Below are positions 184 to 61,604 of a stretch of 63,284 nt of DNA, piece after piece (the stretch's first letter is position 1; the number at the start of each line of letters is the position of its first letter). The notes under the pieces were generated by a model that saw only the letters and a list, made by a program, of their open reading frames with translations, did no database searches and was not told where the DNA came from. Made by a program: the position numbers and the translations under genes. The DNA comes from Clostridia bacterium (GTDB taxonomy: Bacteria; Bacillota; Clostridia; Christensenellales; Aristaeellaceae): NCBI GenBank assembly GCA_017433405.1, contig JAFRHH010000028.1, positions 1 to 63,284 on the forward strand. The letters run 5' to 3'.

Positions 184-279
184 CTCCTCTGTGAACGTCA
201 GTTCACGTCTGCCATTCTGTTCGGATGACGATTTTGTAGCCGCTTCGCTGACGCGTTCGCGGACAAAATCTGTCTCCTC
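184..279 (-). repeat. Family A repeat, full-length copy
   Basis: Complete copy read on the minus strand. It begins GAGGAGACAGATTTTGTC, has an outer stem (GATTTTGT with ACAAAATC) around an inner CCGC/GCGG pair, then CGTCATCCG, then the hairpin GTGAAC-TGAC-GTTCAC, and ends in AGAGGAG. The end supplies the ribosome site of the gene starting at 174. It lies in the 5' leader downstream of the promoter at 301-329. Confidence 0.9.
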
Positions 280-300
280 AGGCTCGAAAGAGCTGGCGTT

Positions 301-329
301 ATTATACCAGACCCGGTCTTTAATGACAA
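301..329 (-). promoter_or_regulatory. Promoter for the secreted protein gene
   Basis: On the minus strand TTGTCA (329-324) and TATAAT (306-301) are separated by 17 bases, near-consensus for a vegetative sigma factor. Transcription would begin near 294 and run through the family A repeat before the ATG at 174. Confidence 0.7.
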
Positions 330-351
330 TCCCCGTTTTTTATGGTAGAAT
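323..351 (+). promoter_or_regulatory. Promoter for recD2
   Basis: ATGACA (323-328) and TAGAAT (346-351) are 17 bases apart, 38 bases before the recD2 start. The -35 box overlaps the -35 of the divergent promoter on the other strand. Confidence 0.55.
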
Positions 352-389
352 GCCTCAAAGGCATGAAAATGAACGCTGGGAGGCTCGTC

Positions 390-2618: not shown

Positions 2619-2633
2619 CGCGCCCCTGTCCGG

Positions 2634-2658
2634 CGGACGTAAACTGACGGTCACAGAA
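2634..2658 (+). repeat. Family A repeat tail, degenerate
   Basis: About 25 bases (GGACGTAAACTGACGGTCAC and flank) match the tail of family A with a few substitutions that weaken the hairpin. It has the same orientation as the comF-like gene but lies 80 bases before it, and it has lost the AGAGGAG. Confidence 0.55.
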
Positions 2659-2738
2659 GTGAACGCTGTCCTGGTTACGGAAAGAGAATCCCATGAGGCC
2701 TGATCAGGCGGAGCGCTCAGAGAGGAGGGAAAGGCGGC

Positions 2739-3446: not shown

Positions 3447-3519
3447 CCGGGCGGGTTCCGGCCCGGACGGAGGGGGACGGATTTCGTGTCAGCGCGGCAT
3501 TTCCCGGCCCGCCGCTCCC

Positions 3520-3549
3520 TTGACAGGGAGCCGGCGGCGGCGGTAGAAT
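3520..3549 (+). promoter_or_regulatory. Promoter for aspartokinase gene
   Basis: TTGACA at 3520-3525 and TAGAAT at 3544-3549 are spaced by 18 bases. They lie 86 bases before the GTG start at 3635. Confidence 0.65.
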
Positions 3550-3612
3550 AGCCCTTGGTTTGCGCTGGGCGAAGGACAGAAAGAACCGTCCTCTCCCGTA
3601 CCGACAAACCGG

Positions 3613-3627
3613 CGTTCACAGAGGAGG
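3613..3627 (+). repeat. Family A tail remnant carrying the ribosome site
   Basis: GCGTTCACAGAGGAGG at the 3' end of the leader equals the last bases of family A (GTTCAC plus AGAGGAG). The rest of the element is absent. It is the Shine-Dalgarno sequence of the aspartokinase gene, seven bases before the GTG. Confidence 0.5.
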
Positions 3628-3634
3628 AAAACCC

Positions 3635-11587: not shown

Positions 11588-11656
11588 CCTCCTCTGTGAA
11601 CGGCAGTTCACGTCTGCCATTCTGCGACGGATGACGTTTTTACAGCCGCTTTGCTG
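11588..11656 (-). repeat. Family A repeat, 5' shortened copy
   Basis: The tail hairpin GTGAAC-TGCC-GTTCAC and AGAGGAGG are intact and serve pth. The first hairpin is only half present and is broken after the GCGGCT segment. Confidence 0.85.
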
Positions 11657-11810
11657 ATAAAAATGTTCTCTTTTCTGCCCTTTTTCAACGTTTTGGGGCT
11701 GTATAGCCGGGACTGGCCTCGGCGTCAGCCCAAAAACACCGCTTCGCGAACGGACCTCCGTCCCTTCGCCGCCCATCAGTTTCTCATCTTTCCCCTGCCC
11801 TGTCAAGGCG

Positions 11811-11936
11811 AATCCGGATTTCCGGCGAACCCTGGATTCCCGCCGAGCCCCGGATTTCCGGCAAGCCCTGTATTTTCAGCAAGCCCTGGATTTTCAGCAA
11901 GCCCTGGATTTCCGCCGAACCCCGGATTTCCGGTTC
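11811..11936. repeat. 18-bp minisatellite, about seven units
   Basis: Seven consecutive units of 18 bases with consensus AGCCCTGGATTTCCGGCG vary mainly at the last few bases. It lies between pth and asnA, outside any convincing gene. Because 18 is a multiple of three, it gives open hexapeptide repeats on both strands, which explains the spurious open frames here. Confidence 0.9.
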
Positions 11937-15656: not shown

Positions 15657-18053
15657 TTATTTCATGCTCTGGGTTCTCGCCCAGGCCGCGTCGATGGTTT
15701 CCTGGTGGCTGGTCGCATACTGGCCGATCTTCTCCACCTGCTCCTGGGTCCGCGGGAAGTGCAGACAGCTGTGGCCCGCGAAGTTGTTATCCGCGATATG
15801 CTGCGTGCCGTGGGGATACGAATGGGTCGACCCGAGATACACGCTGCCATTGGAGAAGACGACCCAGACCGCCTTCGGATTCCAGGTGTTCCCCCCGAAG
15901 ATCCGCAGCATCTTCGCCGTATCCGCGGCGGTCAGCGGCTCGTAGTCCGCGTGGGCCCCGAGGGAGAAGATATGAATCTGGTAGGAGATACCGCTGCCGA
16001 AATCGTATACCGTCGCGTAGGGGTAGCTCCGGGCCACGTTCTTGACGGAGGTATACCAGTTTTCATAGCGCACCTGGGACGCGGAAGGCCGCACCCCGGA
16101 AACCGCCGTGCCGCTGGAGGCAGCCGTCGCTGCGGCCGCCGGCGCCGCCGTCGGTGTTGGCGTTCCCTCCTTCGAAACGGCGCTTCCGCTCTGCAGCGCC
16201 GCCAGGGTCTTCTCCCCGGCCACGCCGTCCGCCTTCAGGGAGTTCGCCTTCTGGAAGGCGACCACCGCCTTATAGGTATTGGCGCCGTAGACGCCGTCCG
16301 CCTTACCCTTAAGATAGCCCAGGCGGATCAGCAGGTTCTGAAGATCCTTGACGGCGGAGCCGGTGGCCCCCTGCTTCAGGATCCCGTTCTTCTCCGCTTC
16401 CTCCGCCCTGGCGGCGGAGGCCTTCCTGGCGCTGCCGCTGAAGAGCGCCTTCTGGGTCGCCTCGCCGGCGGATCCGTCCGCCGTCAGGCCGTTCGCCTTC
16501 TGGAAGGCCTTTACCGCCTCCGTGGTCTTATCGCCGTAGGTACCGTCCGCCCGGCCCTTAAGGTAGCCCAGCTCGATCAGCATTTCCTGCAGCTGAGCCA
16601 CGTTTTCGCCCGTATCCCCGGGCCGGATCGTTCCCCAGAAGGAGGAAGCCTCCCCCGGCGCGGGGGTCGGCGTCACCGTTACCGCGGGGGTCGGGGTCGT
16701 CCCTTTGGCCAGGGCCGCGTCGCTGAACAGCACCTGATAGGTGCCCTTTCCGGCGACGCCGTCGGCCTCCAGGCCGTTGGCCTCCTGGAATTTCTTCAGG
16801 GCGACCTCGCTCAGCGCCCCGAACTTGCCGTCCACCCGGCTGGTAAAATAGCCCAGCTCCTTCAGGCGGCTCTGAACCGTCCGGGCGTCCTCCCCCTCGC
16901 TGCCCTTTCTGACCGAGACCGTCGGAACCTTGTAGACCGGCTTGGGGGTCGGGGTCGGGGTCGGCTTCGGGGTCGGCGTCGCGTCGGCCCGGATCGCCGT
17001 ATCGGCGTAGAGGGCCTGCTGGGTTTCGGCGTAGGCCACGCCGTCCTTCTTGCTCAGGCCCATCTTCTTCTGGAAGGTCAGCACCGCCACCTTCGTGGCC
17101 CCGTCAAAGGTGCCGCTGGGGGTGACCATATAACCCAGGTCGCTGAGCCTCTGCTGCAGCTTTTTAACGTTCGCCCCGGTGTTGCCCAGCTTCATGGTCA
17201 CCCAGCTGACAGGGCTGACGGTATTGATCTTGACGGCGGTTCCCTTCGCGTTCTTCGGCTTTCCGGAATACAGGAAGGCCTGCAGGTTCGCGTCCACGAC
17301 GCCGGTATCCGGGTAGCCGTTCTTCTTCTGGAAGGCGATGACCGCCCTTTCCGTTCCCGCGCCGAACTTGCCGTCCGGCTTTCCGTTCAGGAAGCCCAGC
17401 TCGATCAGGGCGCTCTGCAGCGCCTCGACCTGGTCGCCGGAGGAACCCTTCTGCAGCACCTGGTAGCTGCCCGCGTCCTCCTCGGGGCTCAGGGTCGGCA
17501 CCGGGCTCGGGGTCGCCGTCGCCCGGGTTCTGACCACCTTCTTCAGGGTAATATAATCCGTCTTCACGTAGCCGGAGCTCTTTCCCCAGGTCACCGCGGC
17601 CCAGCTTCCGCTGACCCCGGTCACCGAAATCTCCGTCCCCCGCGGAATCGTCCGGATCAGCGCGCTGCGCACGGACCGGGCGGAGCGCAGGTTCACCTTA
17701 TCCGTCGTTACCGTGGTATAGGGATAGCCGCTGACCGTCTCGATCTCCTCCGGCGCGGGGGTTACGATGACGCTTTTATCCGTGTTGACATACTGCTTCT
17801 GGACATACCCGTCCCGGCCCCGGGCCCTGACATGATACCAGCTGCCGGTTTCGCCCAGCACCTCCACGCTCTCGCCCTTCTCCAGGGTCTCCAGCACCGT
17901 CGCTCCGGAAGACGCGCTGCGGCGCATCCGCACCGAATCCGTGGTCTTCGTCGTAAAGGGGTAGCTCAGCGCCGCCGCGGCCACCGCGCAGACCAGCGTC
18001 AGCGCCGCCGCCAGCGTCAGGGCGCGCCGAAAACGGATTTTCTTTCCTGCCAT
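15657..18053 (-). CDS. Large exported SH3b / multi-peptidoglycan-binding-domain protein
   Basis: The 798-aa protein has a basic N terminus and a membrane anchor or signal (residues ~8-30). Then come two bacterial SH3 domains (~33-90 and ~100-160), five PG_binding_1 modules of ~60 aa (each with an LGY/F...DG.FG...FQK.NGL pattern, ~190-620) separated by Thr-Pro linkers, and a ~150-aa C-terminal domain. That last domain has HGTQH and GHSCLHFPRT, a His/Ser/Cys arrangement recalling L,D-transpeptidases. It probably acts on or anchors to the cell wall. The ATG at 18053 has GGAGGG upstream; a longer frame to 18128 lies in the leader. Own promoter at 18127-18155. Confidence 0.85.
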   Translation of the reverse strand: MAGKKIRFRRALTLAAALTLVCAVAAAALSYPFTTKTTDSVRMRRSASSGATVLETLEKGESVEVLGETGSWYHVRARGRDGYVQKQYVNTDKSVIVTPAPEEIETVSGYPYTTVTTDKVNLRSARSVRSALIRTIPRGTEISVTGVSGSWAAVTWGKSSGYVKTDYITLKKVVRTRATATPSPVPTLSPEEDAGSYQVLQKGSSGDQVEALQSALIELGFLNGKPDGKFGAGTERAVIAFQKKNGYPDTGVVDANLQAFLYSGKPKNAKGTAVKINTVSPVSWVTMKLGNTGANVKKLQQRLSDLGYMVTPSGTFDGATKVAVLTFQKKMGLSKKDGVAYAETQQALYADTAIRADATPTPKPTPTPTPKPVYKVPTVSVRKGSEGEDARTVQSRLKELGYFTSRVDGKFGALSEVALKKFQEANGLEADGVAGKGTYQVLFSDAALAKGTTPTPAVTVTPTPAPGEASSFWGTIRPGDTGENVAQLQEMLIELGYLKGRADGTYGDKTTEAVKAFQKANGLTADGSAGEATQKALFSGSARKASAARAEEAEKNGILKQGATGSAVKDLQNLLIRLGYLKGKADGVYGANTYKAVVAFQKANSLKADGVAGEKTLAALQSGSAVSKEGTPTPTAAPAAAATAASSGTAVSGVRPSASQVRYENWYTSVKNVARSYPYATVYDFGSGISYQIHIFSLGAHADYEPLTAADTAKMLRIFGGNTWNPKAVWVVFSNGSVYLGSTHSYPHGTQHIADNNFAGHSCLHFPRTQEQVEKIGQYATSHQETIDAAWARTQSMK

Positions 18054-18365: not shown

Positions 18366-18492
18366 GCAGAATGGCAGACGTGAACTACCGTTCACAGAGG
18401 AGACAGATTTTGTCCGCGAACGCATAAGCGGAGCGGCTACAAAATCGTCATCCGGACAGAATGACAGACGTGAACTCTGGTTCACAGAGGAG
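18366..18492 (+). repeat. Family A repeat, tail-core-tail array
   Basis: Plus-strand copy. An extra tail (GTGAAC-TACC-GTTCAC, AGAGGAG) is followed directly by a complete element whose own tail is GTGAAC-TCTG-GTTCAC, AGAGGAG. The second AGAGGAG is seven bases before the YuiD-like ATG. It is the main copy on the plus strand, and it follows the orientation of its gene. Confidence 0.9.
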
Positions 18493-19400: not shown

Positions 19401-19512
19401 CTCCTCTGTGAACGGCTGTTCACGTCTGCCATTCTATCCGGATGACGATTTTGTTGCCGCTCCCGCTGACGCGTTCGCGGACAAAATCTGTCTCCTCTGT
19501 GAACGTCAGTTT
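19401..19512 (-). repeat. Family A repeat, full copy plus second tail
   Basis: A full copy (19401-19497) with a second, abutting tail (GTGAAC-GTCA-GTTTCC on the plus strand). It fills the gap between two minus-strand genes. The TGA stop codon of the upstream GT-C gene lies inside the second tail. Confidence 0.9.
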
Positions 19513-20729: not shown

Positions 20730-20800
20730 CTCCTCTGTGAACGGCAGTTCACATCGGTCTTTCTGTTCGGATGACGATTTAGTTACCGCTTCGCTCAGGC
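20730..20800 (-). repeat. Family A repeat, partial copy
   Basis: Tail hairpin (GTGAAC-TGCC-GTTCAC), middle and half of the first hairpin. Its AGAGGAG is about 40 bases from the TTG start of the GT-C gene, so here it does not serve as the ribosome site. A four-codon open frame, ATG-TCA-GGA-GGG-TGA, lies in between. Confidence 0.8.
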
Positions 20801-20835
20801 GGTTTCAGCCCGGGATTCCTCCCCGGCTTCCCCGC

Positions 20836-40481: not shown

Positions 40482-40521
40482 CCTCCTCCTGTGAACGGCA
40501 GTTCACGTCTGCCATTCTGTC
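40482..40521 (-). repeat. Family A repeat, tail only
   Basis: GTGAAC-TGCC-GTTCAC hairpin and AGGAGGAGG with the AATGGCAGACG segment. The rest of the element is missing. It serves capG. Confidence 0.85.
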
Positions 40522-40534
40522 CCCTCTGTCGCGC

Positions 40535-41758
40535 TCATACCGGTTCGAAAAACGTATCCGGATGGTTCGGGTCGAACACCTCGCTGGCCCACATGAGGGT
40601 CACCAGGTTCTCCGTCTCGCTCAGGTTGATCAGGCTGTGGGTATAGCCCGGCAGCATATGCACCGCCTGGATCCTGTCCCCGCTGACCGGGAACTCGACG
40701 ACCTCCTCCGTCCCCAGCTTCCGCTCCCGGATCAGGCCCCGGCCGCTGACGACGATAAAGAACTCCCACTTGCTGTTATGCCAGTGCTGGCCCTTGACCG
40801 CCCCGGGCCGGGAGATGTTGACGCTGAACTGGCCGTGATCGAAGGTTTTCAGGAGCTCCGTAAAGCTCCCCCGCTCATCGGATCGGGTCGTCAGATCGAA
40901 AGCCGCCTTCTCCGGCGGGAGATAGGACAGATACATGGCGTAGAGCTTCTTTTCAAAGCTTCCCGGCTTCAGGGAGGGCATCATCAGCGTCCGGGGCTGG
41001 TCATGGAAGATCCGCAGGCATTCCACAATCCGCCCCAGGGTCACCTTATGGGTCACCGGCACCCCGCAGTACCGCCCGGCGGGATCCCACCGGGGCGTCA
41101 GGCCGTCGTAGCCCGCCTCTCCCGCCGGCGGATAGTCGCATCGGTGCTCCCGGCCCTCCAGGGCGTCCAGCATCTCCGCCACCAGATCGTCGATAAACAG
41201 CAGCTCCAGCTCCACCGACGGGTCATTCACCGTAATCGGCAGATCCCGGGCGATATTGTGGCAGAAGGTTCCGACGGCGGAATTGTAATTGGGCCGCACC
41301 CATTTTCCCGCCAGGTTCGGGAAGCGGTAGACCAGCACCCGCGCCCCGGTCTCCGCCCCGTAGCGGAAGAAGAGCTCCTCCCCCTCCCGCTTGCTGAGCC
41401 CGTATTCCGAGGTGCCGAAGCGCCCGGCCAGGGAGGCCTGGACCGAGGAGGAAAGCATCACCGGGCACCGGTTTCCGCTCCTTCGGAGGGTTTCCAGCAA
41501 AAGGGAGGCGAACCCGCAGTTCCCCTCCCGAAACTCCCCGGGATCCTTCGGCCGGTTGACCCCCGCCAGGTTGAACACAAAGTCCGCCCGGGCGCAGAAG
41601 GCCTCCAGCTCCTCCGCCGTATTCTCCAGGTCATAGGTCATGATCTCCGAAACCGTCAGCCCCGGCCGGGTCCGGTCCTTACCGTCCCGCAGGTTCTTCA
41701 GGTTCTCAACCAGGTTCCGGCCCACAAAGCCTCCCGCTCCGGTCACCAGGATCTTCAC
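40535..41758 (-). CDS. capF: Bifunctional UDP-sugar epimerase/reductase CapF (FnlB)
   Basis: 407 aa: an N-terminal extended SDR (VTGAGGFVGRNL, residues 5-16; YGLSK active site) and a C-terminal cupin from ~285 (HWHNSKWEFFIVVSG, metal-binding His residues). This is the distinctive CapF layout of UDP-L-FucNAc biosynthesis. The start is GTG at 41758 with AGAGGTG five bases upstream. Normally adjacent to capE; here separated from it by the four-gene ATPase/helicase cassette. Confidence 0.92.
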   Translation of the reverse strand: MKILVTGAGGFVGRNLVENLKNLRDGKDRTRPGLTVSEIMTYDLENTAEELEAFCARADFVFNLAGVNRPKDPGEFREGNCGFASLLLETLRRSGNRCPVMLSSSVQASLAGRFGTSEYGLSKREGEELFFRYGAETGARVLVYRFPNLAGKWVRPNYNSAVGTFCHNIARDLPITVNDPSVELELLFIDDLVAEMLDALEGREHRCDYPPAGEAGYDGLTPRWDPAGRYCGVPVTHKVTLGRIVECLRIFHDQPRTLMMPSLKPGSFEKKLYAMYLSYLPPEKAAFDLTTRSDERGSFTELLKTFDHGQFSVNISRPGAVKGQHWHNSKWEFFIVVSGRGLIRERKLGTEEVVEFPVSGDRIQAVHMLPGYTHSLINLSETENLVTLMWASEVFDPNHPDTFFEPV

Positions 41759-44260: not shown

Positions 44261-44355
44261 CTCCTCTGTGACCGACAGCTCGCGTCTGCCTTCCGTTCGG
44301 ATGACGACTTTGGTACCGCTTCGCTGGCGCGTTCGCGGACAAAATCTGTCTCCCG
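44261..44355 (-). repeat. Family A repeat, full-length divergent copy
   Basis: Complete element with several substitutions (tail GTGACC-GACA-GCTCGC on the plus strand, GACTTTGGTACC in the first stem). AGAGGAGG serves the ATPase gene at 43024-44250. Confidence 0.88.
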
Positions 44356-46970: not shown

Positions 46971-46972
46971 TT

Positions 46973-48233: not shown

Positions 48234-49817
48234 TCAGGATCTTGCCCCTGGGACAGCTTCCACCAGCTGCCGCGCCACATATTCCGGCGTGCACGCGCGG
48301 TAGCGTTCCCGGATCTCCTCAAAGGGAATCCGTTTCCCCCGGTTCTCCCGCACGAAGGCGGAAAGCCGCTCCGCCGCCTCCCGGCCGCCGTCCTCCATCC
48401 GGTTCAGGTTGATGGTCAGGCAGAGAGGGTAATCCGCCAGATAGGGCAGGATCGGGCTTGCGTCGTCAAACACAAAGTTCACGATGGGCTTTCCGGTGCT
48501 GATGTATTCAAAGATCTTGCTGGGCACCTGCATCGGGTTCGTATTGTCAATATTGATGAGAAAATCCGCCGCCTCCCGGGCCGCGGCCGCCTCCCCGGAG
48601 GAGACCTGTCCGTGCAGCGCCAGCCAGTCCCGCGCCCGGTCATAGTCCGGCGATGCCTCGATCAGCTCCTGATGACTGCCGTAAAAATCGAAGCAGGCCA
48701 TCTCCTCCCGGGGCGCTTCCTCTCGGGCTGTCTGCTCTGTGAGTGTCAGTTCACGTCTGCCATTCCATCCTGATGACGAATTTGGTACCGCTTCGCTGGC
48801 GCGTTCGCGGACTAAGCCTGCCCCCCGCCAGGCCGCGACGACCTGTATCACTTGCTCCGGCGGGCGAAGGCCCGGATACAGGGCTCCGGCGAAAACCAGA
48901 TGCACCGGGTTCCCGTTCATTCCGTTCCGTTGCCGCTCCCGTCCCCGCGGATCGCAGACTGAATTTTCCTCCTCTGTGAACGTCAGTTCACGTCTGCCTC
49001 TCTGCCCGGATGACGATTTTGCAGGCGCTTCGCTTGAGCGTTCGCGGACAAAATCTGTCTCCTTCCGGATTCCTTCCGGGCGAACCACCATCGGGAACTC
49101 CGAGGGAATCCATTTCCCCTGCAGCTCCGGCCACTGCCTGGCGTTCTCCTCCGCGATCAGGGGGGTCGTCAGGACGAAGGCGCACTCCTCCGCCATCTTT
49201 CGCTCAAAGGCCTTCCGCTCCTCCAGGTGCTCCTCCGTGTCCGTTCCCCGGTTCCAGAAGGTATCCAGCTGATACACCGCCCAGGGCAGGGGACTTCCCT
49301 CCCGCTGCCAGGCCCAGACCGCGTCCTGGGGCATCAGGGTAATCAGCACCAGATCATAGGTTTCCTGCCGCAGATGGTCCCGGAAGAACCGGCGATAAGC
49401 CTTCGCGTAGGGCGGATAGACGGATAGCTCCCGGTATTTTCGGAAAGCTGAACGCTTTCCCTCCGCCAGAGCCCGCCGGGCGATCAGCCAGGCTGTTTTT
49501 ACGAAGTGCCCCTTCAGGTTTCCCATCAGCTGTGCGCGGCTCCGCATCTCCGGCACATAAAGGTTTGTAATCCGCTCCCCCTGCCGCCGCGTAAGTACCG
49601 CGTCCGCCTTCTCTTCAGCCAACCGCCGTGTTACCGCTGTGTCCGCATTCTCTTCAGACCGCCGCCGTGTGACCGCCGTATCCGCCCTCTCCCCGCTCAG
49701 TCCGACCACGTGCAGGCTGTGCCCCATCCCCGTCAGAGCGTCCGCCAGGTTCCGCACGACGGCCCCGTTGGCGTCCCCGTGAGGATAATACCCCTTTGTC
49801 ACAATCAGGATTTTCAC
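48234..49817 (-). CDS. Glycosyltransferase family 4-like protein carrying in-frame repeat insertions
   Basis: 527 aa GT-B glycosyltransferase: N-terminal KGYYPHGDANGAVVRNLADAL, C-terminal ADFLINIDNTNPMQVPSKIFEYISTGKPIV with the usual Lys-Glu pair for nucleotide-sugar binding. Three foreign stretches expand it. A 13-aa tandem repeat (ADTAVTRRRSEEN type, three units) follows the first ~45 residues. Two family A elements are translated in frame mid-protein as TDFVRERSSEAPAKSSSGQ...RRELTFTEE and GLVRERASEAVPNSSSG...RRELTLTEQ. Both lie near the inter-domain region and should form loops. Start GTG 49817 with a weak ribosome site. Confidence 0.85.
   Translation of the reverse strand: MKILIVTKGYYPHGDANGAVVRNLADALTGMGHSLHVVGLSGERADTAVTRRRSEENADTAVTRRLAEEKADAVLTRRQGERITNLYVPEMRSRAQLMGNLKGHFVKTAWLIARRALAEGKRSAFRKYRELSVYPPYAKAYRRFFRDHLRQETYDLVLITLMPQDAVWAWQREGSPLPWAVYQLDTFWNRGTDTEEHLEERKAFERKMAEECAFVLTTPLIAEENARQWPELQGKWIPSEFPMVVRPEGIRKETDFVRERSSEAPAKSSSGQRGRRELTFTEEENSVCDPRGRERQRNGMNGNPVHLVFAGALYPGLRPPEQVIQVVAAWRGAGLVRERASEAVPNSSSGWNGRRELTLTEQTAREEAPREEMACFDFYGSHQELIEASPDYDRARDWLALHGQVSSGEAAAAREAADFLINIDNTNPMQVPSKIFEYISTGKPIVNFVFDDASPILPYLADYPLCLTINLNRMEDGGREAAERLSAFVRENRGKRIPFEEIRERYRACTPEYVARQLVEAVPGARS
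48733..48820 (-). repeat. Family A repeat inserted in frame in a glycosyltransferase gene (copy 2)
   Basis: Nearly complete, diverged copy inside the coding sequence at 48234-49817, in the same orientation as the gene and in the frame that contains no stop codon. Confidence 0.9.
48968..49064 (-). repeat. Family A repeat inserted in frame in a glycosyltransferase gene (copy 1)
   Basis: Full-length copy within the coding sequence at 48234-49817, same orientation and frame as copy 2, about 150 bases from it. Confidence 0.92.
49583..49690 (-). repeat. 39-bp coding minisatellite
   Basis: Nearly three units of 39 bases encode 13-residue units beginning ADTAVTRR. It lies within the N-terminal domain of the glycosyltransferase at 48234-49817. 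Confidence 0.85.
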
Positions 49818-50819: not shown

Positions 50820-52085
50820 TTACACAACTGACATAAAATTTGTCGAGAAGGCCTCTCTGCCAAAGCGGGAAACCACCTGCTCCCGAAGATGGGCGGGATC
50901 AAACGCAATCTTTCCTTCGAGGAAGTCCCGGAGGGCCAGGGCCAGCGCCTCGCCCTCCCGGATCCCGACGATCCGGCCCATGCTTTCGTCCACATAGTCC
51001 TCGACCCCACCGCAGCGGGTGGAGAAAACCGGCAGGCCGCTGCAGGCCGCCTCCAGGGCGGAAACCGGCTGGCCCTCCTGAATCGAGGTCATGACAAAGG
51101 CATCCGCCTGCCGGTAGATTTCGCTCATCTTTTCGTGGGGAACCGACGGAATCAGCTCCGCCCGGTCCGCGAACCGGGACGCCCGGATCTTTTTCTCCAG
51201 CTCCGCCGCGTTCCCGGCATATCCCGGATTCGCTCCGTACCCGACGATCATGACCCGGAAGGGAACCTCCGTCAGCTCCGTCAGCCGGTTCATCACGGAG
51301 ATAAACAGGTCGTAGTTCTTATAGAAGCTGTAGGCCCCGACCGTGATAAGGGTTTTTAGCTCCGTCCCCTCCGTGAACATCCGTTCACGTCTGCCATTCA
51401 TCCTGCTTTGCTGCCGAAGCGGAAAATGCTCCTCCAACACCAGATTGCCCACATAGACAACCTTCGGCAGACGGATATTCTGCATCTCCATCTGTCGCAC
51501 CTTGTCCCAGGAGATCGCGAGGAAGGCCGCCGCCCCTTCGATGGCCTTTTTCTGCCGAAGGGGAATCACCGTTCCGGGCCAGGGCACGGGCCCGTGCTCG
51601 CCAACAATATAGGGCTTTCCGAAATGCCCGGCCAGCAGCTGAACATCCGCCGCCTCCCGCTGGGCGTCGACGCAGTAGAACAGATCGATCCGATCCCGAA
51701 AATGCTCCCCGAAGATCCGGATCAGCTTTTTTTCCTTGATCCGCTCCCGCCGGCAGGACCGCTCCGCGAAAACGCTTCCGTCCTCCCCCCGAAGGCCCCG
51801 GAAGATTCCTTCCGCCGCCCGTTCCCGGAGGGCGGCCCAAGCCGGCACCACCGCCTCGATGGCAAATTCCGAAATATTTTTCTCCTGCCGAACCGGGACG
51901 ATCCGATCCTTCTGCCCCGGACGTTTCCGGATTCGCTCCGTATAGTGGACCACCAGGAAGTCAAACCGATCCGAAAGCGCCAGCGCCTGCTCCCGGAAGA
52001 AGAGACCGAAATGGGGATTCTCCGGAGTCGGATACCAGTTCGTCAGAAGGCAGACCGTCCTTCTCTCTTTCCTTTCCGTACTCAC
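50820..52085 (-). CDS. Glycosyltransferase family 4 (GT-B)
   Basis: 421 aa. CLLTNWYPTPENPHFGLFF at the start, GEHGPVPWPG, TVGAYSFYKNYDLFI, VMIVGYGAN and EGQPVSALEAACSGLPVFSTRCGG, the E-x7-E nucleotide-sugar region. A shortened family A element adds RMNGRRERMFTEG in frame in the middle. GTG at 52085 is used with GAGGAGG from the repeat just upstream; the frame remains open through the repeats to 52172 but that part is repeat-derived. Confidence 0.85.
   Translation of the reverse strand: MSTERKERRTVCLLTNWYPTPENPHFGLFFREQALALSDRFDFLVVHYTERIRKRPGQKDRIVPVRQEKNISEFAIEAVVPAWAALRERAAEGIFRGLRGEDGSVFAERSCRRERIKEKKLIRIFGEHFRDRIDLFYCVDAQREAADVQLLAGHFGKPYIVGEHGPVPWPGTVIPLRQKKAIEGAAAFLAISWDKVRQMEMQNIRLPKVVYVGNLVLEEHFPLRQQSRMNGRRERMFTEGTELKTLITVGAYSFYKNYDLFISVMNRLTELTEVPFRVMIVGYGANPGYAGNAAELEKKIRASRFADRAELIPSVPHEKMSEIYRQADAFVMTSIQEGQPVSALEAACSGLPVFSTRCGGVEDYVDESMGRIVGIREGEALALALRDFLEGKIAFDPAHLREQVVSRFGREAFSTNFMSVV
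51367..51402 (-). repeat. Family A repeat, tail fragment inside a coding sequence
   Basis: GTGAAC-GGAT-GTTCAC hairpin and flank in frame within the glycosyltransferase gene at 50820-52085, in the same frame as the other coding insertions (GRRE..FTE). Confidence 0.85.
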
Positions 52086-52089: not shown

Positions 52090-52242
52090 CCTCCTCTGCG
52101 AACGACAGAACACATCTGCCTTTCTGTCCGGATGACGATTTTGTAGCCGCTCCTCTGCGAACGACAGTTCACATCTGCCTTTCTGCCCGGATGACGATTT
52201 TGCAGCCGCTTCGCTTACGCGTCCGCGGACAAAATCTGTCTC
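52090..52242 (-). repeat. Family A repeat, tandem of a partial and a full copy
   Basis: A 5'-truncated copy (52090-52150) follows a full copy (52151-52242) in the direction of transcription. The join is at GCGGCT/AGAGGAG. GAGGAGG at the end serves the glycosyltransferase gene at 50820-52085. Confidence 0.9.
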
Positions 52243-52256
52243 AGCGCGCAGTTCCA

Positions 52257-52672: not shown

Positions 52673-52728
52673 TCCTCCTCTGTGAACGGCAGTTCACGTC
52701 TGCCATTCTGTCCGGATGACGGTTTTAT
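52673..52728 (-). repeat. Family A repeat, tail and middle part
   Basis: Intact tail hairpin GTGAAC-TGCC-GTTCAC and AGAGGAGG. The element is cut after the ATCGTC/ATAAAACC region. It serves the FdtA-like gene. Confidence 0.88.
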
Positions 52729-52737
52729 AATGGAACT

Positions 52738-53388
52738 TCAACCCTTCCCGAAGAACCGCTCTTCCAGCATCATGCACCAGCAGTGATAGATCGGAAGATG
52801 CAGCTCCTGCACCCGGTAGGTCTCGTCCGCCGGCGCTTTGACCGCCACGTCCGCGATCTCCGCCAGCTCGCCGCCCTTTCTGCCGGTCAGGCCGATGACG
52901 GGAATCCCCAACGCCCGGGCCACCGCCGCCGCGTTCAGGATGTTCTCCGCGTTTCCGCTGGTGCTGATGCCGAGAAACACGTCCCCGGCCCGGCCGAAGC
53001 CATACAGCTGCTGGGCAAAAACCCCCAGGGCGTCCACGTCGTTGATATACGCCGTCGTCAGCGCCTCGTGGGCCACCAGCGGAATCGCCATCAGCCCCCG
53101 CTCCAGGTTCCGGGCCAGCCCCGGCCCCCGCTTCGGATCAATCTCCCTCAGGCGCTCCGCCAGCTCCTCCGGCATCGGCCGGGGAAACCGGAAGCGCTTC
53201 ATCAGCTCTCCGGCCATATGCTCGCTGTCCGCCGCGGAACCGCCGTTCCCGGCGATAAGCAGCTTTCCGTCCCGCTCGTAGCAGGCTTCCATGACGCGAT
53301 AGGCCTCCAGGATCGGCTGCCGGATTTCCGAAAGCTCCGGATACCGCGCCGCCAGCGCCTCCACATGCTTTTCGAGTCCGGATTTCAT
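52738..53388 (-). CDS. gmhA: Phosphoheptose isomerase (SIS domain)
   Basis: Converts sedoheptulose 7-phosphate to D-glycero-heptose 7-phosphate. The 216-aa SIS protein has AGNGGSAADSEHMAGEL (~45-61), LGISTSGNAENILNA, GLTGRKGGEL and a C-terminal QELHLPIYHCWC with catalytic His. The 53388 ATG has GGAG eight bases upstream. With HddC-GmhB it indicates a GDP-D-glycero-D-manno-heptose pathway. Confidence 0.92.
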   Translation of the reverse strand: MKSGLEKHVEALAARYPELSEIRQPILEAYRVMEACYERDGKLLIAGNGGSAADSEHMAGELMKRFRFPRPMPEELAERLREIDPKRGPGLARNLERGLMAIPLVAHEALTTAYINDVDALGVFAQQLYGFGRAGDVFLGISTSGNAENILNAAAVARALGIPVIGLTGRKGGELAEIADVAVKAPADETYRVQELHLPIYHCWCMMLEERFFGKG

Positions 53389-56135: not shown

Positions 56136-56172
56136 CCTCCTCTGCGAATAACAATTCATATCTGCTATTCCG
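56136..56172 (-). repeat. Family A repeat tail with compensatory changes
   Basis: The hairpin reads GCGAAT-AACA-ATTCAT on the plus strand instead of GTGAAC-N4-GTTCAC. The inner C-G pair has become T-A on both sides. AGAGGAGG is kept and serves ahcY. It also overlaps the last bases of the HddC-GmhB gene. Confidence 0.7.
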
Positions 56173-57472
56173 CCAGGATCCCCGCCACTGCTTCCTGCAG
56201 CGACCCGGCTGTCAGATCCTGTCCATATTCTCCCCCGCCCAGCAGGCAGGTCCGGCATCCGGCCCGCCTTCCGGCCTCCACATCCTTCTCCCGATCCCCG
56301 ATCATCCAGGAGGCGGCCAGGTCGATGTTGAATTTCTCCGCCGCCTTCAGCAGCATACCGGGCTTCGGCTTCCGGCAGTCGCAGACAACCTTGAGCTCCG
56401 GAATCTCACCCTCAAAACCCCGATCCGGGTGATGGGGGCAGTAGAAAATCCCGTCCAGATACGCCCCCTCCGCCCCCAGCAGGGTCTCCATCTTCCGATG
56501 AATTTCATCCAGCTCCGCCACCGTGACCTCGCCCCGGGCGATCACCGGCTGGTTCGTCGCCACGATGGCCAGATATCCGGCGTCGTTGATCCGTCGGATG
56601 GCCTCCGCCGCCCCCGGCAAAAGCTCGAAGTCCCGGATATCCCGAAGGAACCCGACCTCCCGGTTGATCGTCCCGTCCCGGTCCAGAAAAATCGCCTTCT
56701 GAGGATTTTTCAGGTTCCGGGCGCTGACCCTGCCGGCCTCAAAATCCCGGCAGACCGCCGCGTAGCGGTCCGGCGTTCCCATGTCCCGGACGTATTCCGG
56801 GCTGTCGTAGCAGAACATGATCCCCGTGCCACAAAGGGGCTTCAGGATCTGCCGATCCAGATCCACCTTCACCGGCTTCCCGTCCACCCCGACGGTTCCC
56901 ACCGCCGCCGGATCGATGCCGCACCGGTCCAGCACCGCGGGATTCAGAAGATGGATCCCCGCGTTCACCCGGTTCCGGACCCATTCGGGCCGGGGATCCT
57001 CCTTCGCCAGCCATCGGGTCACCGCACCCCGCTCGTCCGCGATCACCAGGGCGCTGTCGTAGGGATGGCTGTTAGGATGGGTAAACAGGGTCGCCAGGCC
57101 GCCCTTTTCCCGGTGAAAGGCGGCAAACCGCCGCAGGTCGATATCGAACACCGCGTCGGCATTGATCAGCAGGAAATCCGACTCCAGCTGATCCCGGATT
57201 TTCAGCAGCGCCCCGGCGTTTCCCAGGGGGAGTTCTTCCCTATAATACTGAATCGAAACCCCGAAGCGGCGCCCGTCCCCGAAGTAATCCATGATCTGCT
57301 CTCCGAGATGGGACACCGTCAGGATCAGCTCCGTAAAGCCCTGCTCCCGGAGGCTCCCGATCTCCCGCTCCAGCACGGGTTTCCCCCCGACGGGAATCAT
57401 AGGCTTGGGGATATCCGATGCCACTGAACGGATCCTCGTTCCCTTCCCCCCGGCCATCAGGACTGCTTTCAT
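56165..57472 (-). CDS. Heptose-1-phosphate nucleotidyltransferase fused to heptose bisphosphate phosphatase (HddC-GmhB)
   Basis: 435 aa. Residues 1-~235 are an NTP transferase (VLMAGGKGTRIRSVASDIPK). From ~255 there is a GmhB-type HAD phosphatase with FLDRDGTINREVGFL, ATNQPVIARG, and the zinc-loop cysteines in YCPHHP and CDCRKPKPGM. Together they would dephosphorylate heptose 1,7-bisphosphate and activate heptose 1-phosphate, probably with GTP. ATG 57472 with GAGGTG, own promoter 57536-57564. The kinase HddA, needed between GmhA and GmhB, is not seen in the window. Confidence 0.9.
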   Translation of the reverse strand: MKAVLMAGGKGTRIRSVASDIPKPMIPVGGKPVLEREIGSLREQGFTELILTVSHLGEQIMDYFGDGRRFGVSIQYYREELPLGNAGALLKIRDQLESDFLLINADAVFDIDLRRFAAFHREKGGLATLFTHPNSHPYDSALVIADERGAVTRWLAKEDPRPEWVRNRVNAGIHLLNPAVLDRCGIDPAAVGTVGVDGKPVKVDLDRQILKPLCGTGIMFCYDSPEYVRDMGTPDRYAAVCRDFEAGRVSARNLKNPQKAIFLDRDGTINREVGFLRDIRDFELLPGAAEAIRRINDAGYLAIVATNQPVIARGEVTVAELDEIHRKMETLLGAEGAYLDGIFYCPHHPDRGFEGEIPELKVVCDCRKPKPGMLLKAAEKFNIDLAASWMIGDREKDVEAGRRAGCRTCLLGGGEYGQDLTAGSLQEAVAGILAE

Positions 57473-57535
57473 CGTTTCACCTCGTTGCGCGCCAGTTCAG
57501 GTCCGCCGGTCCCCAAAGCACCATCCAACCCCATG

Positions 57536-57564: not shown

Positions 57565-57577
57565 TTTCCAGGCCCCT

Positions 57578-57616
57578 GGACAGAAAGGAACCGTCCCCGT
57601 GTCTGCCCGTGTCTGC
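57578..57616. repeat. Family B repeat copy
   Basis: GGACAGAAAGGAACCGTCCC followed by CGTGTCTG and a second CCGTGTCTG. It lies directly after the stop of the membrane glycosyltransferase gene. Confidence 0.8.
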
Positions 57617-57621
57617 GCCCT

Positions 57622-59211
57622 TCATGGCCCAATCATCTGACGCATCGTGGTGAGGAAGACCACAAAAAACATTCCGATCCAGAGCAGGGAAAAGCCCAGG
57701 CAAACCCTGGAAAGCAGCCTATGCCTAACCAGTCTTTCCTCTGTGAACGTCAGTTCACGTCTGTCATGCTGTCCGGATCTCTCTGCCGTTCCCCTATTCA
57801 TGTCCATACTCGCCTTGCCGGCAGACAAAGTATCCGGCTTTTCATCTGCCTGATCATCAGACAGAAGATACGTCCCCGTGTCTTGAATGGTGTCATCGGA
57901 ACCGGCCATCCGGGATCTGCTGCCAGACAAAAGAACCGTCCCCGTGTCTGTGATGCCGAAGGCCAGGGGCAGCAGCAGGGTAATGATATACCGCCCCTGG
58001 GGCTGATAGTCCGTGAAAAAGGAGTTGTACAGCGTCAGCCCCACCGTAATGATTCCGCCCGCGAGGAAGATGCCAAGGATCCACTTCTCCTCCCGGGTCT
58101 TTTTCCGGAACACGAACACTCCGAAGCAGACCGCTCCAAGGAGAATGACGGCATAGTAGAAGAAATAGATCCACCCGGGCATGAAGATGTTCATGTTTCC
58201 GAAAGCCCCGATGAAGCTCTTGAGCAGCGCCACCAGATAGGCGCACCGCTCCTCCGTCAGCATCCGGAAAAGAGTATATCCTTCCATCTCGCTGGGCCGG
58301 CGGTAATTCTTGAAAACCCAGCCCTCCGCCTCAAGCCGGGCCCGGTCGACCGCCTCCGTGGTCATGCCCAGGAAATCCCCGTTGTGGTAGTAAGCGTTCC
58401 GGATAAACCACCAGCCCGCCAGCGCCACGATTCCGAGAAAAATCCCGGTCATCTTCAGGGCCTTTTCCTTTCCGGAAATTCGTTTGTCCGACAGGAAGCT
58501 GACCGCCGTCACGATCCCGCAGACCAGCAACCAGCCATAGGCGTTGTAATAGCTCAGCAGCGTCGCCGATGTCCAGACCGTCAGATGCACGCAGTCCCGA
58601 ACCCGCCAGTGATTCCGGGATCCCATCAGCACGCTGTACAGCACCGCGATGACCCCGCAAAGCGCCAGGGAGTCATTGTTGTGATACATCCCCAGGAACA
58701 TGGTCTGGGGCATGAAGCAGACCAGCGCCGCGAACAGTGTGGAGACGCACCGCCGCCGGAAAAGCGCATTCCCGATCCGCTGCAGATAAACGCATCCCAC
58801 CGAAAGGGACAGCACCGAGCACATCCGGGAGGCCGCCAGCAGCACCCACTCTGACCCCGTAAACAGCCCCGCGATCCGCATGAACAGCGCGTTGATCATT
58901 GCCGCCAGATAGGGATAGATCGCGTAGGAGAAGCCGTATTCCCGGAGGATCAGTTCCCCCTCCTCCCCGATGGGCAGCCGCCCGTGAGACACCATATAGT
59001 CGCAAAGGAGCCGCCGGGCCCATTCGTCCGGACAGTATTCCACCCGAAGTAGTGAAGCCCCGGCCAGGCAACACAGAAATACGAGCACTGCCAGTCCCCA
59101 CTGCCAGGCGTTCAGTCCTGCAGCGGCAGCCTTTTTATGCGGTTTCAGAATCTCCGTCACTCTGCCTGGACTTGCAAGTTCAGTCATCACCGACTTCTGA
59201 TTATTTCTCAT
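57622..59211 (-). CDS. GT-C membrane glycosyltransferase (DUF2142-like) with repeat-expanded loop
   Basis: 529 aa with ~11-12 transmembrane helices. An early loop has EYCPDEWARRLLCDYM and MYHNNDSLAL, and the pattern QPQGRYIITLLLPLA near residue 415 recalls DUF2142/PMT-like enzymes. Between that helix and the final one (CLGFSLLWIGMFFVVFL) lies a ~75-residue hydrophilic stretch made of two family B elements (DTGTVLLSG, DTGTYLLSD), the composite block (DEKPDTLSAGKASMDMNRG) and one family A fragment (RRELTFTEE). Without them the loop would be short. Start ATG 59211; alternative ATG eight codons in. Confidence 0.75.
   Translation of the reverse strand: MRNNQKSVMTELASPGRVTEILKPHKKAAAAGLNAWQWGLAVLVFLCCLAGASLLRVEYCPDEWARRLLCDYMVSHGRLPIGEEGELILREYGFSYAIYPYLAAMINALFMRIAGLFTGSEWVLLAASRMCSVLSLSVGCVYLQRIGNALFRRRCVSTLFAALVCFMPQTMFLGMYHNNDSLALCGVIAVLYSVLMGSRNHWRVRDCVHLTVWTSATLLSYYNAYGWLLVCGIVTAVSFLSDKRISGKEKALKMTGIFLGIVALAGWWFIRNAYYHNGDFLGMTTEAVDRARLEAEGWVFKNYRRPSEMEGYTLFRMLTEERCAYLVALLKSFIGAFGNMNIFMPGWIYFFYYAVILLGAVCFGVFVFRKKTREEKWILGIFLAGGIITVGLTLYNSFFTDYQPQGRYIITLLLPLAFGITDTGTVLLSGSRSRMAGSDDTIQDTGTYLLSDDQADEKPDTLSAGKASMDMNRGTAERSGQHDRRELTFTEERLVRHRLLSRVCLGFSLLWIGMFFVVFLTTMRQMIGP
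57736..57779 (-). repeat. Family A repeat fragment inside a coding sequence
   Basis: Tail hairpin GTGAAC-TGAC-GTTCAC and flank in frame in the membrane glycosyltransferase gene, reading GQHDRRELTFTEE. Confidence 0.88.
57777..57884 (-). repeat. Composite block C (copy 1, in coding sequence)
   Basis: A 108-base block with over 90% identity to 61624-61730. It includes CTATTCATGTCCATACTCG, a CTTGCCGGCAG segment and ends in a family B element. Here it is translated in frame. Confidence 0.9.
57924..57949. repeat. Family B repeat inside a coding sequence
   Basis: AGACAAAAGAACCGTCCCCG followed by TGTCT, in frame as DTGTVLLSG in the membrane glycosyltransferase. Confidence 0.88.
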
Positions 59212-59327
59212 TCGCTTCTGCCATATCCTTTGTTCCTGCGTTCACAGTTTGAGAAAATGGGATTCCATGCAGGAAGAGCATCTATTGAAACAAAAGGATT
59301 AAAATCGGAGGAAAACCAAGATTGTTA

Positions 59328-59516
59328 TGAGGGGTAGAGACAATGGCTGTCTTGCCAAGACAGGAGATACGTCCCCGCGTCTTGCCGTCCCCGTGTCTTC
59401 CCCATCCCCGCGTCTTATTCAGCGGCTGCCCGCAGACAGAAGATACGTCCCCGTGTCTTCTGAGGGGTAGAGACAATGGCTGTCTTGCCAAGACAGAAGA
59501 TACGTCCCCGTGTCTT
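59328..59516. repeat. Two 56-bp direct repeats with family B cores, plus a third core
   Basis: 59328-59383 and 59461-59516 differ at only two bases. Each holds the perfect palindrome CTGTCTTG-C-CAAGACAG followed by AGATACGTCCCCGTGTCTT. Another core lies at 59430-59460. Together they fill the ~300-base gap between two minus-strand genes, where no other feature is seen. Confidence 0.9.
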
Positions 59517-61378
59517 CAACATATTTCTTCCTTCAGGGCTGCCAGCAGGCGGTTATCCTCCTCCGTACGGCGAACGGCGATTCTCAGATAATTTCCGCCG
59601 TTCGTTTTCTGTGTCAGATCCTTAATCAGGATATTGTGCCGGATCAGCAGTCTTCGGGTCAGTTCCGCCGCGGTTCGGTCTCCCGTCAGTGCAGCCGTGG
59701 TTCGGTCTCCCTTCTGTTCCGCCGCGGTTCGGTTTCCCGTCAGCTCGATCATGAGATAGTTTGCCTGGGAGGGAATCACCCGGATCCCGGGAATCTTTGC
59801 AAGCTCCGAAGCCAGCCGCTTTCGCTCCTTCCGAAGACAGGCAAGTCCCTCCCGGTAATCCTTCCGGTATTTCTCTTCGATCTGCAGAAAAAATTCCCCG
59901 AAGGAATTGATATTCCAGATCGCGACGTCCTTTTTCAGCGTCCGTATCAGTTCCCCGTCCCCGGAACCCAGAACACCAAGCCGCAGCCCCGGAACGCCAT
60001 AGGATTTGGAAATGCTCTTGACAACCACCAGATGCGGGTTTTCCGCCAACAGCTCCTGCCGGATCACGCTGTTATCCGCCTCGTCCGCAAAATCCGCGAA
60101 GCTCTCATCCACGACCAGCCGGATCCCCTTCTCCCGGCACCAGTCCGCCAGCCGGATCAATTCCGCCCGGGGAAGATAGTTTCCGCTGGGATTGTCCGGA
60201 TTGACGAGCACCAGATTATGAATATCCTTTCCGGCAAAGAAATCCATCAGATCCTGCGCGGTATAGGCAAAATCCGGGTTCTCCGGATAAAAGCAGATCG
60301 ACTGATCCTCCGCGGCCCTGTGCGGATACTCCTCAAAGGTCGGCCGGATGAATCCCGTCCTTCCCGAAAGCTGCCCCATCAGGCTCCGGATCAGCTCCGC
60401 GGCTCCGTTTCCCACGAGGATCTGATCCTGTCTCACCCCGAAATTCTTCGCCGCCAGCAGGGAATTGACCCGCATGCCCGACGGATACTGCGTCAGGAGC
60501 GTATCGAAGCTGGCCCGCAGCTCCTCTTTCATCTTTTTCGGCGGATACCAGGGATTTACCAGATAGCAGAAATCCAGCATCTTCGGATACCGCCAGTATC
60601 CGCCATAGCGCTGCTGCAGCCGTTTCACCCGTTCCTCCTCATCCGGGGCGAACAGGGATTCCGCAATATCCAGATCCTGAATATCGTCGATCTCGTACCA
60701 GCGCTGCCCGGTCAGCCGTTTTCCCCGGATCACCGGCTCATCCAGCATGGCGATCACCCGCAGCACCTGTTCGTAGTATTCGTTTTCTCCCAGGGCGGAC
60801 TGATAGGCCTCCAGAAACGGCACATAGTATTTCCGGGAAAAATCGCGGCTGAATTTGTAGATGTTTACCGTCTTGAAATACTCTCCCGCACGGCTGAAAT
60901 CAAAATGCTTTCCCGGAATAAAGTCGATGATCTCATCCTTCTCATTCAGCCGGACGCAGGTTCCATCCATCCAGGGTTCGTACCGATCCACCAGTGCCAG
61001 CGTATCCCGTGGATCCTCCATAAGCGCATCCAGTACCGCGTCCTCAAAGATGATATCCGACTCAAACAAAAGCGTATCCTCTTTGCACAGCCAGTCTTTC
61101 GCCAACGCCAGAGAATAGATGTTGTTCGTCCGGTCATAGACCGGGTTCTCCACAAAGGTCACCGGCACGGATCCATTCAGCGTCCCGATATAATCCTGTA
61201 ACTTCTTTCCTTCATAGCCTGTCACCACGACCACGCGAGTCAGATTTCGACCCTCCAGCTGGCGCAGCATCCGCTCGATGAGGGTCACGCCGCAGACCTT
61301 CACCATGCATTTTGTATTATCCCGCGTCAGCTCCTTCAGCCGTTTTCCCATCCCGGCGGCCAGTATGATTGCCTGCAT
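59516..61378 (-). CDS. PntC-like fusion: CMP-phosphonate/phosphocholine-type nucleotidyltransferase + aminotransferase
   Basis: 620 aa. Residues 1-~240 are a LicC-type nucleotidyltransferase (IILAAGMGKRLKELTRDNTK). Residues ~265-620 are a class I/II aminotransferase with VGNGAAELIRSLM, NPDNPSGNYLP, VDESFADF and the PLP lysine in SISKSYGVPGLRLG. This is the architecture of PntC, which transaminates and cytidylylates aminoethylphosphonate in some bacteria. A 30-bp minisatellite adds TGNRTAAEQKGDRTTAALT-type repeats near residue 565. With pepM at 23.5-25.5 kb it supports a phosphonate modification. GAGGAG of the repeat array precedes ATG 61378. Confidence 0.78.
   Translation of the reverse strand: MQAIILAAGMGKRLKELTRDNTKCMVKVCGVTLIERMLRQLEGRNLTRVVVVTGYEGKKLQDYIGTLNGSVPVTFVENPVYDRTNNIYSLALAKDWLCKEDTLLFESDIIFEDAVLDALMEDPRDTLALVDRYEPWMDGTCVRLNEKDEIIDFIPGKHFDFSRAGEYFKTVNIYKFSRDFSRKYYVPFLEAYQSALGENEYYEQVLRVIAMLDEPVIRGKRLTGQRWYEIDDIQDLDIAESLFAPDEEERVKRLQQRYGGYWRYPKMLDFCYLVNPWYPPKKMKEELRASFDTLLTQYPSGMRVNSLLAAKNFGVRQDQILVGNGAAELIRSLMGQLSGRTGFIRPTFEEYPHRAAEDQSICFYPENPDFAYTAQDLMDFFAGKDIHNLVLVNPDNPSGNYLPRAELIRLADWCREKGIRLVVDESFADFADEADNSVIRQELLAENPHLVVVKSISKSYGVPGLRLGVLGSGDGELIRTLKKDVAIWNINSFGEFFLQIEEKYRKDYREGLACLRKERKRLASELAKIPGIRVIPSQANYLMIELTGNRTAAEQKGDRTTAALTGDRTAAELTRRLLIRHNILIKDLTQKTNGGNYLRIAVRRTEEDNRLLAALKEEIC
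59654..59743 (-). repeat. 30-bp coding minisatellite
   Basis: Three 30-base units encode 10-residue units of TGDRTAAELT type inside the aminotransferase domain of the PntC-like protein. Being a multiple of three, they keep the frame. Confidence 0.85.
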
Positions 61379-61389
61379 CGTTCTACTCT

Positions 61390-61604
61390 CCTCCTCTGTG
61401 AACAGCAGTTCACGTCTGCCATTCTGCGACGGATGACGATTTTGATACCGCTTCGCTGTGATCGGCAGTTCACATCTGCCTTTCTAGCCGGATGATAATT
61501 TTGATACCGCTTCGCTGTAATCGGCAGTTCACGTCTGCCATTCTGCGGCGGATAGCAATTTTGATACCGCTTCGCTGACGCGATCGCGGACAAAATCTGT
61601 CTCC
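61390..61604 (-). repeat. Family A repeat, triple tandem with 60-bp period
   Basis: Three tail-plus-middle units at an almost exact 60-base period (61397, 61457, 61517), with only the outermost unit keeping the first hairpin in full. AGAGGAG of the innermost serves the PntC-like gene. Tail hairpins of the outer two carry mismatches (GTGATC, GTAATC on the plus strand). Confidence 0.92.

Follow-up and report, generated by a model that had tools for sequence, protein, structure and literature searches.

A small repeat in a Christensenellales genome that probably inserts into Shine-Dalgarno sequences and rebuilds them with its own end

We describe a small non-coding repeat, referred to as family A, in a 63,284-nucleotide stretch of DNA (the window) from a Clostridia bacterium of the family Aristaeellaceae, order Christensenellales (GenBank assembly GCA_017433405.1, contig JAFRHH010000028.1). 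The best overall explanation, in which we place good confidence, is that family A is a mobile element that inserts 3' of NGAG motifs in Shine-Dalgarno (SD) sequences, and that its own end rebuilds the SD. The draft genome to which the window belongs (own genome hereafter) comprises 2,533,817 bases in 92 contigs, and is 89% complete with 0.26% contamination. For its Era-like protein (name read from the sequence), the ten closest contigs in GTDB r220 have 68-74% amino acid (aa) identity and come from uncultured rumen or gut Clostridia, while Christensenella-labelled metagenome-assembled genomes in the same contig set have ~55%. Below, G0xx refers to genomes (own genome, G000), C to contigs (window, C92), and L to extracted loci.

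Family A is ~94 nt long (about 90), begins with ACAG, and ends with GAGGAG; a long hairpin lies near its left end and a short one near its right end. The consensus of 132 aligned copies from the own genome is GGAG-ACAG-ATTTTGTCCGCGAACGCGTCAGCGAAGCGGTTACAAAATC-GTCATCCGGACAGAATGGCAGAC-GTGAAC-N4-GTTCAC-AGAGGAG (hits on C13, C22, C49, C56, C74, and C79, and locus L105, were left out of the alignment). At up to three mismatches, the right-end pattern GTGAACN4GTTCACAGAGGAG has 19 matches in the window and none in 100 shuffles, and CGTCATCCGGACAGAATGG has 10 matches against a shuffle mean of 0.01. R1, a covariance model built from eight full window copies, matches the window 21 times at E<=1, including 17 matches at E<1e-4. 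An earlier reading of the window from its letters alone (the sequence-only reading) had noticed about twenty structured repeats, in agreement with these counts, and had proposed a covariance-model search of the genome. This search found at least 150 copies in the own genome (150 of 150 scored candidates matched, out of 747 candidates), and the true number is probably higher. The middle motif alone occurs at 82 places in the genome at up to two mismatches, compared with none for the reversed-pattern control.

By a hand count from the genome search, the copies are spread over more than 50 of the 92 contigs, with ten matches clustered within 19 kb at C5:1699-20706. Most copies are not recent, because their identity to the nearest neighbour is 0.896 at the median and 0.979 at most, and the family may by now be quiet or nearly so. 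We also read 101 own sources by eye (the window and L009-L108), which contain 19 left-end-only hits, including likely chance matches within genes, and 49 right-end-only hits, mostly 5'-truncated or internally deleted copies. No long element bearing both ends was noticed by eye among these sources, in which the surrounding open reading frames (ORFs) were not searched. Some short copies lack the left hairpin, as if it had been deleted between two GACAG words, and read GGAGACAG-AATGG...GAGGAG or similar (L024 +1023, L081 -2000, L048 -341, L078 +182, L106 +2487, and the window minus strand near 40483); several of them precede start codons.

The flanks of the copies differ between the two ends. The left flank was read in 99 of the 132 copies, after leaving out 22 without a recognisable start, 10 nested in other copies, and one at a contig end. 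The tetranucleotide to the left of the element is GGAG in 63 of these, AGAG in 9, TGAG in 8, GAAG in 7, CGAG in 4, and another word in 8; NGAG is thus present in 84 of 99 non-nested copies, and is pre-existing in relatives. GGAG also ends 99 of the 132 copies. Among the 36 copies whose left flank is not GGAG, however, the right end is identical to the left flank in none and is GGAG in 24. Tetranucleotides that differ from GGAG at a single base do so at position 1 in 21 of 30 cases on the left, but in only 1 of 26 on the right. Based on this comparison, the left tetranucleotide is the target (NGAG) and the right one is the element's own. The ten nested copies sit directly on the right end of an older copy, with one GGAG common to both. 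A duplication of a GGAG target was considered and rejected, since none of the 36 informative copies shows it and the pre-insertion AGAG upstream of serS is single while the right end there is GGAG. As judged from the flanking sequences, the element inserts directly 3' of a pre-existing NGAG, mostly GGAG and often the SD of a gene, without duplication; that insertion follows NGAG in SDs and leaves the SD rebuilt is, in our view, highly probable.

Mobility was examined at 16 sites by removing ACAG...GAGGAG, joining the flanks, and aligning them to relatives. At nine sites (serS, C27:15212, C27:17193, the metH-like gene at L031, L069, L107, L046, L012, and L017), an element-free relative aligns at the junction or no more than about two bases away from it (gene names used here, i.e., serS-, metH-, tyrS-, trkA-, ftsH-, era-, and secA-like, were read from N-termini without a family search). 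The alignment is exact at the junction for L031 (G005), L069 (G051, G005, and G016), and L107 (G016), and one or two bases off for L046, L012, and L017. Upstream of serS, the own genome has gaaacggAGAG-[element]-gaagcggaatcaATG where G051 has gaaacagAGAG-gaaggttgtacaaATG, and no element was found within 75 nt 5' of the start in 29 relatives (L156-L184). At C27:17193, own GGAG-agggaagaggcATG corresponds to GGAG-agggatcagcGTG (AGGGATCAgcGTG) in G008, aligned by eye. At C27:15212, G051, G024, and G018 read TAA-GGAG-...ATG, and the own genome is 94-95 nt longer. In a further example, the joined own flanks aagcaGGGAG-gcgcccATG correspond to tgaGGAG-agcgccATG in G005. Two relatives lacked an anchor at L107, as did three at serS, and a second relative at L031 (G051) shows just a GAGAG-like run. 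Relatives of the era-like and HD-domain-like sites (names read from the sequence) are also element-free with an SD present, with less exact alignment.

Such empty sites were easy to find because few congeners carry family A, and they show that family A is mobile, as the sequence-only reading had suggested. All nine clean sites have an SD-like purine run at the element position in at least one relative. The orthologues therefore already have an SD there, and the element displaced an existing one. The earlier claim that the repeat supplies the SD to the next gene thus stands in one part, namely that the terminal GGAG probably functions as an SD, and falls in the other, since at the nine sites the gene already had an SD.

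Placement relative to genes is far from random. A copy was counted as gene-linked if, on the same strand, an ATG opening an ORF of 80 aa or more (60 aa where the ORF runs off the stretch) lies 4-20 nt past its 3' end. Leaving out four copies directly trailed by another copy, 67 of 128 are gene-linked, compared to 4 of 128 when mirrored (5' end, opposite strand; Fisher 2e-20). As background, this rule is satisfied at 8.3% of 6000 randomly drawn positions and at 11% (1128/10260) of the NGAG sites that lie outside elements. Relaxing the rule (ATG, GTG, or TTG at 3-30 nt) gives 87/132, versus 24/132 when mirrored and 25% for 4000 random positions; 61 of these 87 starts stand 6-13 nt away. The sequence-only reading, which tied orientation and spacing to the downstream gene and named random placement as its refutation, is borne out here.

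The right end also appears to be in use. In this comparison, copies whose first start codon is an ATG no more than 20 nt away were classed as gene-linked. Of 66 such copies, 59 retain the right GGAG, compared with 36 of the 62 remaining copies (Fisher 8.6e-5); the bodies of the two groups are equally close to the consensus (identity 0.864 and 0.869, respectively; P 0.66). The difference is also seen among well-preserved copies alone (51/55 vs. 31/52). Because GGAG is preserved before genes while the bodies are equally diverged, the terminal GGAG of gene-linked copies is probably used as an SD. The left GGAG stranded by insertion is more often paired than the new SD (unpaired 0.27, P 1.5e-6).

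The sequence comparisons show that the element enters 3' of NGAG, leaving the old SD as its left flank, and that its right-end GAGGAG lands at roughly the distance from the start codon that the old SD had. We propose that the terminal GGAG there serves as the new SD, as its conservation before genes suggests. The conserved right end would make insertion almost harmless, and copies in SDs that point at a gene would therefore survive. Tandems arise where later copies enter the GGAG at the end of an earlier copy. Movement may occur as single-stranded DNA through an HUH/Y1-type transposase acting in trans, as for IS200/IS605 elements and PATEs; this is suggested by the left target tetranucleotide, the similar right-end tetranucleotide, the hairpins at both ends, and the lack of duplication, and by analogy we give a Y1 transposition step roughly even chances. 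Under the IS200/IS605 scheme, one expects the terminal tetranucleotide to be similar to the target. An element targeting GGAG would then end in an SD of its own, and both the survival of the gene and the excess of gene-pointing copies would be explained at no extra cost. More tentatively, the strongly conserved internal GTCATCC may act as an anti-SD-like guide for single-strand insertion into SDs, with the right GGAG rebuilding the SD. GTCATCC can base-pair with the left-end NGAG-AC (GGA:TCC and GAC:GTC, leaving one A bulged); we regard this guide as possible but doubtful.

Several observations weigh against the explanation as a whole. With 67 of 128 copies gene-linked, about half are not directly before an ATG start. 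Three of the 16 sites (C27:22874, C27:25102, and C86:2477) did not align cleanly, and two (C86:3081 and C86:7091) had no relative on both sides. Among the own copies, 17 of 27 pairs show double changes, near the slid controls (9-15). In 66 gene-linked copies, GGAG is unpaired at 0.50 with native bodies and 0.47 with shuffled bodies (P 0.18), so that exposure of the SD by the element's fold is not supported. Further, no mobilising enzyme could be tied to family A. The sole Y1 gene found in the own genome is a RAYT (C5:1183-1512; L152 805-1548, minus strand), whose closest relatives by BLAST among the loci compared are in G023 and G021 (58 and 52%), both without an element match. The other 29 Y1 loci returned had no clear match to the family A model (other listed Y1 matches were outside this test), and hairpins shared with a TnpA-encoding IS605-type element were not found among the 30 Y1 loci returned, with the own genome 89% complete. 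Finally, the left and right hairpins of family A are unlike in sequence, whereas in many IS605-type elements the end hairpins are alike. In some of these they are identical (PMC3119063).

Four other explanations were weighed. Family A might consist of REP-like (repetitive extragenic palindromic) repeats moved by the resident RAYT. The genome has one RAYT, whose start lies 150 nt downstream of the end of a family A copy (beyond this copy is an ORF which we take to be PD-(D/E)XK-like), and the GGAG before the hairpin resembles the 5' tetranucleotide of REPs. The published REP tags, however, are GTAG/GTGG or CGTC (PMC6006769; PMC3733652), the RAYT relatives and other Y1 loci described above gave no clear element match, and what lies near the RAYT in both the own genome and G023 is a different repeat (family B, below). 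With RAYT similarity (by BLAST, without a tree) not tracking the presence of the element, the RAYT was rejected as the mobiliser, and this explanation is unlikely. An ordinary miniature inverted-repeat transposable element (MITE), moved by a DDE transposase with GGAG as the target duplication, would account for GGAG on both sides of many copies; terminal inverted repeats were not seen, and the flank comparison, including the single AGAG at serS, refutes it unless nearly all flanks mutated later, which makes it very unlikely.

A translational control module, kept and spread for a hairpin leader through which a group of genes is tuned jointly, would fit the GGAG at SD distance in the 5' leader, its preservation in gene-linked copies, and a left hairpin kept via compensatory changes between subfamilies. 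The downstream genes, however, look functionally mixed (all those listed above by N-terminus), the element is nearly absent from most congeners, many copies are not before genes, the body raises the accessibility of the SD no more than shuffled bodies, and structure is equally expected under single-strand transposition. We consider such a module quite improbable, and the related suggestion of the sequence-only reading, that many genes are tuned together, found no support in the mixed genes, the clear copies in only 4 of 44 congeners, and the unchanged accessibility. Alternatively, the repeat might not be mobile at all, but a vertically inherited leader lost from the relatives. One site has the element in a congener too (G009, with own C54), although this stretch is 94% identical and looks like a transfer. 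Against an immobile leader, an intact SD in relatives aligns with the junction at nine sites and the copies are dispersed over most of the contigs, and we give it next to no credence. A mobile element that inserts into SDs and rebuilds them thus remains our preferred explanation.

Among known systems, family A is closest to PATEs of Haloquadratum in its apparent mode of working. PATEs are non-autonomous relatives of IS605-type elements, whose hairpins theirs resemble; they are too short for a transposase, lack terminal inverted repeats, and have palindromes near both ends, a short target oligonucleotide at the left end, no target duplication, and strain-specific insertions (PMC3119063). Family A likewise has no duplication, a left target oligonucleotide, palindromes at its ends, and a right tetranucleotide equivalent to the target. 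It differs in that it often targets the SD and rebuilds it with its right end, and in that no IS605-type partner was found; the main text of PMC3119063 contains neither the word ribosome nor start codon. With IS200/IS605 elements, family A shares a target tetranucleotide on the left flank, a final tetranucleotide at the right end, subterminal hairpins (PMC6006769), and an orientation set by the target, but it has no internal tnpA and its two hairpins differ.

As in REPs and BIMEs, family A has many short, palindromic, intergenic copies, forms a species-specific family, and has CGTC after the first hairpin. REPs, however, are 20-40 bp long and lie mainly downstream of coding regions, often as inverted dimers (PMC3733652), whereas family A is ~94 nt long with two different hairpins, often stands upstream of genes in their orientation, has GGAG as its tag, and has a distribution that RAYT similarity by BLAST does not track. 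IStrons are likewise mobile elements that limit damage to the host gene (PMC4227781). They do so by self-splicing from RNA, whereas the end of family A rebuilds a signal in DNA. Small repeats are also known from pneumococci, SPRITE being one of them. The pneumococcal BOX and RUP repeats are small and interspersed, like family A, and now dormant, as family A may be, but the portion of PMC3049150 consulted describes no SD targeting for them. In the titles and beginnings of abstracts of an open-access library, we found no mobile repeat that targets or rebuilds SDs; by this comparison, family A would be PATE-like, with SD targeting and rebuilding for which no precedent was found in that library.

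In other genomes, family A is rare. Among 44 other genomes of the genus, searched with R1 under strict filters and with a limited number of candidates scored, G009 has one strong copy, G047, G056, and G043 have diverged copies (8, 5, and 1, respectively), and G018 has one weak match. The copy in G009 lies in a 3-kb transporter-type operon that is 94% identical between L002/L124 (G009:C45) and L060 (G000:C54). Since G009 has no other family A match, this shared stretch probably reflects recent transfer. A second covariance model, R2, from the G047/G056/G043 subfamily, found 20, 12, and 1 copies in these genomes, respectively. This subfamily (11 copies aligned) has the same layout with a different right hairpin (GAAAC...GTTT), and the two subfamilies largely share GGAGAC, GTCATCCG, and the GGAG at the right end. 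Nine of 14 copies examined from this subfamily precede an ATG ORF, compared to 2 of 14 mirrored. Its alignment pairs in 90.5% of cells versus 37-46% when slid, with 13 double-change cells versus 0-2. Across both subfamilies, the left hairpin pairs in 93.4% of cells versus 31-55%, with 18 double-change cells versus 1-3; four pairs have double changes, which is no unusual number given that 150 of 500 shuffles reach it. The 132 own copies pair in 92.4% of cells versus 24-46% when slid, in an alignment fitted to the model.

Beyond the genus, R1 found no copy in 16 genomes from 16 other families of the order, and a weak order-level scan (10 candidates scored per genome) matched the own genome alone among 396. 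There was no exact pattern match in GTDB r220 contigs or viral contigs, and no blastn match in plasmids or phages. Rfam 15 has no match in the window at gathering scores, and five further loci searched at E<=0.1 gave two sub-threshold miRNA matches alone, off the element in L109.

The window copies are listed in Table 1. The ten start codons named by the sequence-only reading agree with the observed spacing, e.g., 6-13 nt after GGAG, although the copy at 3604-3626 is weak on its own. Besides family A, the window contains a second, REP-like repeat, family B (GACACGGGGACGTATCTTCTGTCT; 57572-61758, minus strand, e.g., 59491-59514), which occurs at 31 places in the genome at up to one mismatch (reversed pattern, none); family-B-like sequence near a RAYT was seen in 2 of the 30 Y1 loci, i.e., those of the own genome and G023. 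Two 97-nt stretches (57789-57885 and 61635-61731), 93% identical, each adjoin copies of families A and B. Other repeats in the window are an array with an 18-nt period and a four-fold 165-nt unit (11816-11933 and 16179-17420, respectively).

Table 1. Copies of family A in the window (positions are those of the 63,284-nucleotide stretch; bits are R1 scores).
Copy	Position	Strand	Score and context
Full	184..277	-	118.6 bits; GGAG 9 nt before ATG at 174
3' end only, GTTCACAGAGGAG, weak	3604..3626	+	8 nt before GTG at 3635; no R1 match at E<=1
5'-truncated	11589..11671	-	48.9 bits; 6 nt before start (11582) of peptidyl-tRNA hydrolase gene (Pfam)
3' end of older copy	18380..18402	+	next copy nested in its GGAG
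Full	18399..18492	+	113.8 bits; 7 nt before ATG at 18500, DUF212 gene (Pfam), strand as gene
Full	19401..19495	-	110.5 bits; nested in GGAG of older 3' end (19492-19514)
Partial	20730..20824	-	53.3 bits
3' end, internally deleted	40483..40576	-	32.1 bits; before ATG at 40475
Full	44261..44353	-	99.5 bits; 10 nt before ATG at 44250, BrxC/D-like ATPase gene
Full, ending GGAA	46878..46973	-	93.8 bits
Full, diverged	48732..48825	-	87.2 bits
Full, left flank GGAG	48969..49062	-	107.6 bits
3' end	51366..51420	-	27.9 bits
Full (52150-52243), then second 3' part (52091-52149)	52091..52243	-	before GTG at 52085
5'-truncated	52675..52764	-	50.6 bits; 13 nt before ATG at 52661, FdtA gene
3' end	56137..56195	-	27 bits; 11 nt before ATG at 56125, S-adenosylhomocysteine hydrolase gene
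3' end, ending GGAA	57736..57835	-	40.9 bits
Array: full (61510-61604) fused to further 3' units	61391..61604	-	78.7 and 53.9 bits; last GGAG 12 nt before ATG at 61378

Mobile DNA usually harms its target or hides between genes. Family A, as proposed here, would instead repair the damage in the same step in which it inserts. The ribosome-binding leaders of dozens of genes would thereby have been rewritten in one lineage within the history of the genus, which would provide a natural experiment on how much the context of an SD matters and suggest a simple route for the turnover of leaders. If the single-strand mechanism is right, this would be a transposition system with the SD motif as its target. 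If the guide reading is also true, the element would find its target by mimicking the ribosome, and translation starts would serve it as a genomic safe haven.

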